Shown piece after piece: positions 52,468 through 54,294 of a stretch of DNA of 64,000 nucleotides; the first letter of the stretch is position 1; each line of letters opens with the position of its first letter. Source of the stretch: Sulfurovum sp. TSL1 (lineage in GTDB: Bacteria; Campylobacterota; Campylobacteria; Campylobacterales; Sulfurovaceae); the NCBI RefSeq assembly GCF_019972135.1, contig NZ_BPFI01000001.1, positions 169,106 through 233,105 of the forward strand, given 5' to 3'. A program made the translations under genes and the position numbers. A model generated the notes under the pieces. The model saw only the letters and a list, made by a program, of their open reading frames with translations. It was not told the origin of the DNA and made no database searches.

Positions 52468-53475
52468 ATGGTAAAAGTCGGTGTTGTAGGAGCCAGTGGA
52501 TATACAGGGCTGGAACTGGTGAAAATGTTGGTGACCCATAATGGGTTTCAGCTGACCTATCTTGCCACAACCCAGGGAGATACGATGATAGAAACACTGC
52601 ATCCCTCTCTGGTAGATGTAATCAGTTTGCCTGTAGAAAAGGCAGATGTAGCCTCTGTGGCTGAACGCTGTGAACTTGTTTTTCTTGCCCTTCCTCACAA
52701 AGCCTCTATGGGCTTTGCAAAAGCGCTTTTGGATAAAGGGGTAAAAGTCGTTGATCTCTCTGCTGATTATCGTTTAGAGCTTGATACGTATGAAGCACAC
52801 TACTGTGCTCATGAAGATAAAGAGCATTTAGGTGATGCTACCTATGCACTGATCGAATACTATAGAGAAGAGTTGAAGGGAACGAACCTTGCTGCCGGAC
52901 CAGGCTGTTATCCTACTGCAACACTGCTTGGTATTTTACCGTTCATACCGTATCTTGATACTTCTGCGCCTCTTTTTGTCGATGCAAAGTCCGGTGTGAG
53001 CGGTGCAGGTAAAACATTGAGTGAGACTGCACATTTTGTGACGATCAACGATAATATCTTTGCCTACAATCCACTTAAACACCGTCATGCACCCGAAATC
53101 GCAGAGAAGATAGAGAAGGTACACGGTGCTAAAATAAATGTCAATTTTGTGCCTCATCTTATCCCTGCGACACGGGGTGAGTTGGTCTCTGTTTATGCAA
53201 CGTTAAAAGAAGATATTGATCCGCTTGAAGTGTTGAAAAAACATTATACGAATGACCCGTTCATCCGCATCAGAGAGACACCGGTCGATATTAAAAGTAC
53301 GGCGGGGACACATTTTTGTGACATCTTTGCAGCCAAAAACGGCAATGCACTTTTTGTCTCTTCTGCCATAGACAACCTCTTGCGTGGTGCAAGTTCTCAG
53401 GCACTTGTGGCTGCGAACCTGATGTGCGGATATGATGAAGGTATGGGGATACCAACGATCGCCTATATCCCATAG
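52468..53475 (+). CDS. argC: N-acetyl-gamma-glutamyl-phosphate reductase
   Basis: 335 residues. The NADP site VGVVGASGYTGLELVKML and catalytic Cys in AAGPGCYPTATLLGILP identify ArgC, third step of arginine synthesis. It lies 12 bases after greA on the same strand. No other arg gene is in the window. Confidence 0.96.
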   Translation: MVKVGVVGASGYTGLELVKMLVTHNGFQLTYLATTQGDTMIETLHPSLVDVISLPVEKADVASVAERCELVFLALPHKASMGFAKALLDKGVKVVDLSADYRLELDTYEAHYCAHEDKEHLGDATYALIEYYREELKGTNLAAGPGCYPTATLLGILPFIPYLDTSAPLFVDAKSGVSGAGKTLSETAHFVTINDNIFAYNPLKHRHAPEIAEKIEKVHGAKINVNFVPHLIPATRGELVSVYATLKEDIDPLEVLKKHYTNDPFIRIRETPVDIKSTAGTHFCDIFAAKNGNALFVSSAIDNLLRGASSQALVAANLMCGYDEGMGIPTIAYIP

Positions 53476-53501: not shown

Positions 53502-53590
53502 TTTCTTTCCTACTTTTCTAGAAAAGTAGGCAAAAGTCGTCACGGTTCTCGAATCGCTTCGCTTGCAAGGGCGTTCACCGTGACAAGAAA
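53502..53590. repeat. Compact palindromic element, MITE/REP-like
   Basis: The ends TTTCTT (53502-53507) and AAGAAA (53585-53590) are inverted. Inside are a perfect 22-base palindrome with arms CCTACTTTTC and GAAAAGTAGG (53509-53530), and GTCACGGT (53539-53546) paired with ACCGTGAC (53577-53584). It fills the argC to lpxH-like gap and is GC-richer than its surroundings. Confidence 0.5.
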
Positions 53591-53610
53591 GAGCGATGAT
53601 TGGAGAATAG

Positions 53611-54294
53611 ATGTTTGAGATCAAAGAGCAGGCAATTTTTATTGCCGACTCACATTACCCTCATCATGGAGATGAATTTTTAGTTTTACTGAAGAAGCTG
53701 GAGGGCGGAGAAGTGCAAACGCCTCAGCTCTTTTTGATGGGTGACAACTTTGATCTGCTCTTTGGACATAATGACTACATACAGACTTTTTCAAAAGAAG
53801 CCATAGTTCTTTTACAGACGCTTTCACAAAAACTTGACATACACTACTTTGAAGGAAACCATGATTTTTGCCTCAAAGATGTTTTCCCTGATATCCATGT
53901 GTACAGTAGAGAAGAACAGCCTGTAATGTTTCATCTGGACGAAAAAAAGATTGCGGTCTCTCATGGTGACAAATATGCTACAGGATTTGGTTATGATCTC
54001 TATTGTCAAATTTTACGTAATGAAAAGACACTGAGGATCCTGAAACCTTTTGAAAAGGCTATCATCGATCATCGTATGAAAAAGTTGTCAAAAAAACATA
54101 TCTGTTTTCACTTTGAGGGCTTTGAAAAAAGGGTGGAAGAGATATTGGCACACTACAGTGAAGCAGACCTTGTGATCGAAGGCCATTTTCATCAGTGTAA
54201 GACCGTAGGTAAATATATCTCGTTGCCCTCATTGGCATGCCAGGGTATGGTAGGTGTCATAGAAGAGGGAGACATGCACTTTAAGACACTTTAA
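53611..54294 (+). CDS. LpxH-like UDP-2,3-diacylglucosamine hydrolase / metallophosphoesterase
   Basis: 227 residues. Calcineurin-type metal ligands are in order: IADSHYPHH (Asp13, His15), LMGDNFDLLFG, FEGNHDFC, VSHGDKYATG and IEGHFHQC. The spacing fits the LpxH group, which makes lipid X in lipid A synthesis; other epsilonproteobacteria use similar proteins for this. It overlaps yqaA by one base. Confidence 0.82.
   Translation: MFEIKEQAIFIADSHYPHHGDEFLVLLKKLEGGEVQTPQLFLMGDNFDLLFGHNDYIQTFSKEAIVLLQTLSQKLDIHYFEGNHDFCLKDVFPDIHVYSREEQPVMFHLDEKKIAVSHGDKYATGFGYDLYCQILRNEKTLRILKPFEKAIIDHRMKKLSKKHICFHFEGFEKRVEEILAHYSEADLVIEGHFHQCKTVGKYISLPSLACQGMVGVIEEGDMHFKTL

Follow-up and report, generated by a model that had tools for sequence, protein, structure and literature searches.

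A dispersed, structure-conserved, REP-like repeat downstream of argC in Sulfurovum

What kind of element is the compact palindromic stretch that follows argC in Sulfurovum sp. TSL1? The window (the whole stretch of DNA analysed, 64,000 nucleotides, contig positions 169106–233105) carries on its + strand an argC-like gene with semialdehyde dehydrogenase domains (52468–53475), then the element and, on its 3′ side, a calcineurin-like phosphoesterase gene (53611–54294). The original prediction, which proposed a MITE or a REP, described the locus accurately: the element lies 3′ of argC, which ends at 53475, TTTCTT and AAGAAA are present at 53502–53507 and 53585–53590, and both a perfect 22-base palindrome (53509–53530) and an 8-base inverted pair (53539–53546 and 53577–53584) were confirmed. 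The element is also GC-richer than its surroundings, as predicted, with 44.9% GC; its 500-base flanks have 40.4% and the remainder of the intergenic gap 23.9%. The palindrome, which we call H1 (CCTACTTTTCTAGAAAAGTAGG), is the only perfect one of at least 20 bases in the window, and 40 simulations of the window under a first-order Markov model yielded none of at least 22 bases; other copies have similar palindromes in which the changes are paired. H1 is followed by an A-rich linker (53531–53541, + strand) that is conserved in the copy alignment and ends in a CGTC tag (53538–53541, + strand), the GTC of which doubles as the base of the stem of a second hairpin, H2. On the + strand, H2 consists of a 5′ stem arm (GTCACGGT, 53539–53546), a conserved loop (TCTCGAATCGCTTCGCTTGCAAGGGCGTTC, 53547–53576) holding an inner helix, GAA-t-CGC / GCG-TTC, and a 3′ stem arm (ACCGTGAC, 53577–53584) that covaries with the 5′ arm. 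The 3′ tail (AAGAAAGAGC.., 53585–53605, + strand) sits where other copies have a further hairpin, H3, and has AAGAAAGAGCRAT in common with locus L032. Compared with shuffles, the element folds more stably on both strands (z −3.0 on the + strand and, more strongly, −3.5 on the − strand).

The element is repeated throughout the genome. R1, a covariance model trained on 36 copies from several genomes, scored the repeat core (H1, linker and H2) at 53503–53585 on the + strand (contig positions 222608–222690) with 102.8 bits, a score to be read with the window copy itself among those 36. R1 found 14 copies in this genome at E ≤ 0.001 and a fifteenth at 0.027, and blastn against the same genome located the repeat at over a dozen scattered positions. 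By the original prediction's own test, one conserved copy per genome would have pointed to a terminator or regulatory element; instead there are 14–15 copies in this genome and up to 25 in its relatives, a copy number that rules out a single-copy terminator.

To define the range of the element, we used both R1 and blastn. At E ≤ 0.01, R1 found at least one copy in 50 of 61 genomes of the GTDB genus, with a maximum of 25 per genome, and in 24 of the 32 high-quality genomes of the genus; one relative, G024, has 8 copies. By blastn, 30 of 37 genus genomes were matched and none of 23 genomes from other families of the order. The model search revealed relatives of the element elsewhere in the family, in other genera, and in one additional family (f16), with matches in 10 of 199 genomes at the level of the order and 20 of 397 at the level of the phylum; the phylum-level search scored 11 candidates per genome, and its counts are not copy numbers. 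The exact loop pattern was found in at least 120 stretches of GTDB contigs, and the 80 listed titles were all Sulfurovum, Epsilonproteobacteria or Campylobacterota. The element was not matched in the near-complete genomes G019 and G072 or in G011 (94% complete). G009 and G016 gave no model match, but had two blastn matches and one, respectively, and were therefore not counted as element-free. We also considered carriage by phages or plasmids and rejected it: the exact loop pattern had no match in viral contigs, blastn found no match to the element in phages, and the sole match in the plasmid collection was a 395-kb replicon of Sulfurovum mangrovi.

For comparison between copies we assembled an alignment of 108 rows from 100 of 230 loci, taken for the most part from the top-scoring places listed (E ≤ 1e-6), which leaves weak copies under-represented. 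Counts of H3 and of terminal repeats use 105 of these rows, three having been set aside because they were repeats or had short flanks. In window orientation, the unit runs from a 5′ tract through H1, the linker CAAAAA.CGTC and H2 to the tail, often with H3. The 5′ tract, with a consensus near TTGAGGCGTTGTTTCTC, is worn down in the window copy. H1 comes in two types, CTACTTTTCTAGAAAAGTAG-like or CTTCATTTTTTTAGAAAAAACGAAG, and the type with an A.C mismatch on the + strand makes up 59 of 105 copies; because the two types align poorly, H1 was left outside the model and checked copy by copy only. H2 has an 8-pair stem and a 4-base bulge, with the inner helix lying in the 30-base loop. Among 100 distinct copies, CGTC is exact at the join of linker and stem in 80 and CGTT stands there in 16, and the GTC of the tag pairs with GAC in the H2 stem. 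In most copies read, the H2 stem is followed by A and then by AG, TTATT or the run-up to H3, which mostly has CACAC or CACGC arms and was found in 64 of 105 copies versus 13.5% of shuffled tails. The TTTCTT/AAGAAA pair occurs in 1 of 105 copies, that of the window, and therefore does not represent the ends of the repeat family. Consistent with this, the 5′ tract of a copy shows no better pairing with its own tail than with a swapped one (139 of 200 swaps reach the observed value).

Some copies depart from this plan. Extra hairpins lie within the H2 loop in L005, L012, L018 and L035, and within H1 or the linker in L010, L013 and L014; an extra segment (around GTGAAGTGAAG/GTGAAGCGAAG..) is inserted within H1 in L010, L013 and L049. 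A different H2 stands behind the same H1 and linker in L021, L052, L055, L056, L060 and L190, and at the L021 site G027 and G004 bear the usual H2 instead. In L058 (1499–1590), H2 is flipped relative to H1. Copies in genus g26 (L367–L380; G141, G154) have a more regular, CGTCATTGCGA-like and CGTC-REP-like shell around the core, and an outer inverted repeat, GTCATTGCGA / TCGCAATGAC (at most 2 mismatches), encloses 10 of the 12 with enough flank. In genus g70, which belongs to another family (L397, L398, L400–L407; G247, G490), most of the element's copies form inverted dimers that end in hairpins, with 18 and 13 matches (E ≤ 0.1) in two 20-kb stretches. No match was found in 160 kb of G247 sampled outside its clustered stretch; the g70 copies are therefore strongly clustered.

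We found that the H2 stem changes in letters while remaining paired. The 100 distinct copies, drawn from the better-scoring ones, contain 49 distinct stem pairs, and 97.6% of stem cells are paired. For the whole H2 structure, 95.9% of cells are paired versus 82.4% in shuffles, cells changed on both sides number 196 versus 53 (none of 500 shuffles reaches this), and the covariation score is 0.404 versus 0.140 in shuffles and at most 0.109 when the structure is slid. Of the five covariation measures, two fail to beat the shuffles: the number of pairs with two-sided change (7 versus 6.5; 210 of 500 shuffles reach it) and the number of further pair types (17 versus 19.5; 495 of 500). In other genera and families, outside the model, there were 18 two-sided cells versus 3 in shuffles (0 of 500 reach this), in 22 rows that come in many cases from one genome and in an alignment fitted to the model. 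The same turnover is visible at single sites. Across 82 pairs of copies at the same site in the same orientation, 218 of 656 stem pairs differ, with both sides changed in 183, and loop letters differ at 166 of 2,460 positions; these pairs are not independent, and a few cross-pairings at two-copy sites remain among them (L003/L134, L004/L156/L163). For example, L013 and L126, with flanks 89.7% identical, differ on both sides in 5 of 8 stem pairs. L002 has unmatched arms resembling the arms that two relatives have at this site, and looks like an intermediate of such a change. Recombination between copies, instead of drift, could also be the source of the same-site stem changes.

The few mismatched cells give a hint of which strand folds. 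Read on the + strand, the H2 stem has G.U in 3 of 800 cells and A.C in 16 of 800, such that 16 of the 19 wobble-type cells are G.U on the − strand (binomial p 0.004, for cells that are not independent). Divergent gene pairs contribute one cell of each kind; every other gene context shows the excess. As far as few cells can tell, the excess is unrelated to which way the neighbouring genes point, and H3 has no strand excess (3 versus 1). The − strand is thus a weak favourite as the folded strand, weak because the excess ignores gene direction and is absent in H3; the signal comes from 19 cells, and biased mutation could produce the same pattern.

The element is placed non-randomly with respect to genes. 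For this count, rows with the same letters for 60 bases on either side (L114 = L036; L194 = L190) were removed to leave 106 copies, and neighbouring ORFs were called mechanically, 15 of the 106 lacking a neighbour call. The 91 with both neighbours comprise 35 (+,+), 32 convergent (+,−), 21 (−,−) and 3 divergent (−,+) contexts. On a circular chromosome convergent and divergent gaps are expected in equal frequency, so 32 versus 3 is a strong bias, counted over copies that are less than independent because sites are common to several species. There are two inverted pairs in this genome by blastn, and among seven close pairs in the alignment five lie between convergent genes (L003, L004, L134, L158, L163) and one in a tandem context (L032), while the seventh, L156, gave no clear context.

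Individual sites record presence, absence and either orientation. At argC, where the original prediction had pointed to such a comparison, 51 genomes had a match and 30 loci were read. ArgC lies upstream in 24, counting the locus of this genome, and in two of the 24 a further ORF intervenes. Of the 24, 7 carry a forward element, 3 a reversed one and 1 a partial one; 4 have another palindrome and 9 have neither. The other palindrome has the form GTAGGGTG.. / ..CACCCTAC (L065, L072, L080, L084). The gap downstream of argC looks, from these arrangements, like a repeat hot spot. At a second site, N, G003 and G027 carry the element, about 109 bases that correspond to 16 in G000 (this genome); flank identity is 92% and 84%. 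At this one resolved empty site, with its diverged flanks, we saw no target duplication, which the original prediction had proposed looking for. A comparison of L361 with L230 at this site shows that the gene downstream has an ATG start codon where the element is absent and apparently a GTG start beside the element. At the L006 site, the element is present in G000 and absent from G027, and G003 has a different insert. Many sites are common to species with 10–30% flank divergence, and movement is therefore not frequent.

These observations establish a real, dispersed, structure-conserved repeat, and of the known kinds REPs, especially CGTC-tagged ones, are the closest. REPs tagged with GTAG or CGTC are described by Di Nocera et al. 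(2013; PMC3733652), who name Sulfurovum sp. NBC37-1 as a carrier of the latter. There, the CGTC-tagged REP has a terminal unpaired CGTC (or TGTC, CCTC) tag, an 8–9 bp stem with complementary A-T at the first and second positions, a loop of 4–5 bases and a short unpaired CCA tail; it lies between tandem or convergent genes, forms inverted dimers and has no dedicated transposase, its mover being not known (PMC3733652). Measured against that description, our element is alike in that CGTC adjoins the hairpin, in its inverted dimers, and in its intergenic position between tandem or convergent genes (3 of 91 divergent) with no correlation to Y1_Tnp genes. The tag itself compares both ways, CGTC standing at the join of linker and stem but with its GTC paired to GAC. 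The element differs in that, after CGTC, the first stem pair is A-T/T-A in 41 of 100 copies, the second in 62 and both in 11, the loop is a conserved 30 bases rather than 4–5, there is no CCA tail, and the palindrome H1 and often H3 are added. A pattern for the usual CGTC form, CGTCATT..AATCCA, had no match in G000 or G024. The Sulfurovum family of that paper may or may not be this one; Di Nocera et al. may have counted it under CGTC. GTAG REPs, or REPtrons with their RAYT, are alike as dispersed intergenic hairpins with inverted pairs, but the element has neither linkage to a RAYT nor a correlation with one; the separate GTAGGGTG palindrome at the argC site of four relatives, which is not the element, is noted beside this kind. 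In the 2025 RepRanger paper (PMC12306157), a word search of the main text did not find Sulfurovum, and among the literature matches listed there was no description of an element with these features. As far as we have seen, the element is thus REP-like in behaviour and new in build.

A resemblance to two other classes is looser. ERIC and BOX intergenic repeats are structured, about 100–150 bases long and not known to have a transposase; in general terms, the element is similar in size, structure, intergenic position and want of a known transposase. Integron attC sites are recognised as a folded single strand, with free stem letters and conserved bulges and structure. Recognition of a folded single strand and free stem letters are the likeness we propose, whereas no gene cassettes were seen near the element and its stem base (GTC/GAC in 80 of 100 copies) is not the attC core.

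Taken together, we consider it probable, with some reserve, that in Sulfurovum and its relatives the element is a REP-like, dispersed repeat that is non-autonomous and mobilised in trans as a folded single strand. In that form H2 and its conserved loop, beside the CGTC tag, would be recognised, perhaps preferentially on the − strand, and an enzyme acting in trans would copy or move the element into the 3′ flanks of genes, leaving the H2 stem free to drift as long as it can still fold. Putative effects on transcripts, through 3′ hairpins or pairing of inverted copies, would be secondary. We infer the step from an element that is kept as a hairpin and dispersed to one that is mobilised in trans as a folded single strand. 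A broader reading, which we regard as possible rather than likely, describes an element that is structured and present in at least two families of Campylobacterota, with a conserved internal-loop core, hypervariable, near-perfectly paired helices and the same site across species, which might be a folded, attC-like single-stranded DNA substrate of a recombinase or transposase, or else a multi-copy RNA. Within that reading, the form differs by family, with mostly monomers in Sulfurovum and clustered inverted dimers in another family.

A functional RNA, either a structured 3′-UTR RNA or an independent small RNA, selected at many genes and dispersed incidentally, would account for the strong covariation and conserved loop, the scarcity of copies between divergent genes and the many sites common to diverged species. 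It is unlikely, as the element stands in either orientation at the same site and in tandem contexts (35 versus 21), is unmatched in G019, G072 and G011, has wobble pairs that ignore the strand transcribed with the neighbours (in few cells) and matches no Rfam family over the gathering score. A classical MITE derived from a DDE-type insertion sequence is less likely still. A length of about 130 bases, intergenic position, presence or absence at sites and the outer inverted repeat around g26 copies are all consistent with it, but the genus of the window has no common terminal inverted repeats and no target duplication is visible at the one resolved empty site. From the original proposal of a MITE or a REP, the dispersed, REP-like repeat thus stands, and a MITE in the strict sense is not supported.

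Mobilisation of a REP by a RAYT-like (Y1) transposase of the same genome is very improbable. The layout of hairpin and tag is REP-like and this genome has one gene of the Y1_Tnp family, to which RAYTs belong, but no copy of the element lies near it, Y1_Tnp count and copy number are uncorrelated (rho 0.008, n = 61 genomes), and eight genomes with 9–25 copies, two of them less than 80% complete, have no Y1 match. Given this absence of linkage and correlation in a parent-transposon search that covered Y1_Tnp genes, we rejected a RAYT as the mover. The Y1_Tnp gene of this genome is a lone, RAYT-like gene of 177 amino acids in L031 (1429–1962). Ordinary intrinsic terminators of similar look are just as improbable: the − strand has a T run in the linker after H2 and copies lie downstream of genes, but termination does not need a 30-base loop conserved in the genus and partly in other genera, either orientation occurs, and a terminator scan made no call on the element, a scan that detects only 3–8-base loops and therefore could not call H2.

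For Sulfurovum and its relatives, a larger relative of the CGTC REPs, with a conserved loop, paired turnover of its stem and sites at which it is present or absent, would supply defined baits and strains for finding the mover. It would also be a natural data set for separating selection at the RNA level from palindrome maintenance at the DNA level.
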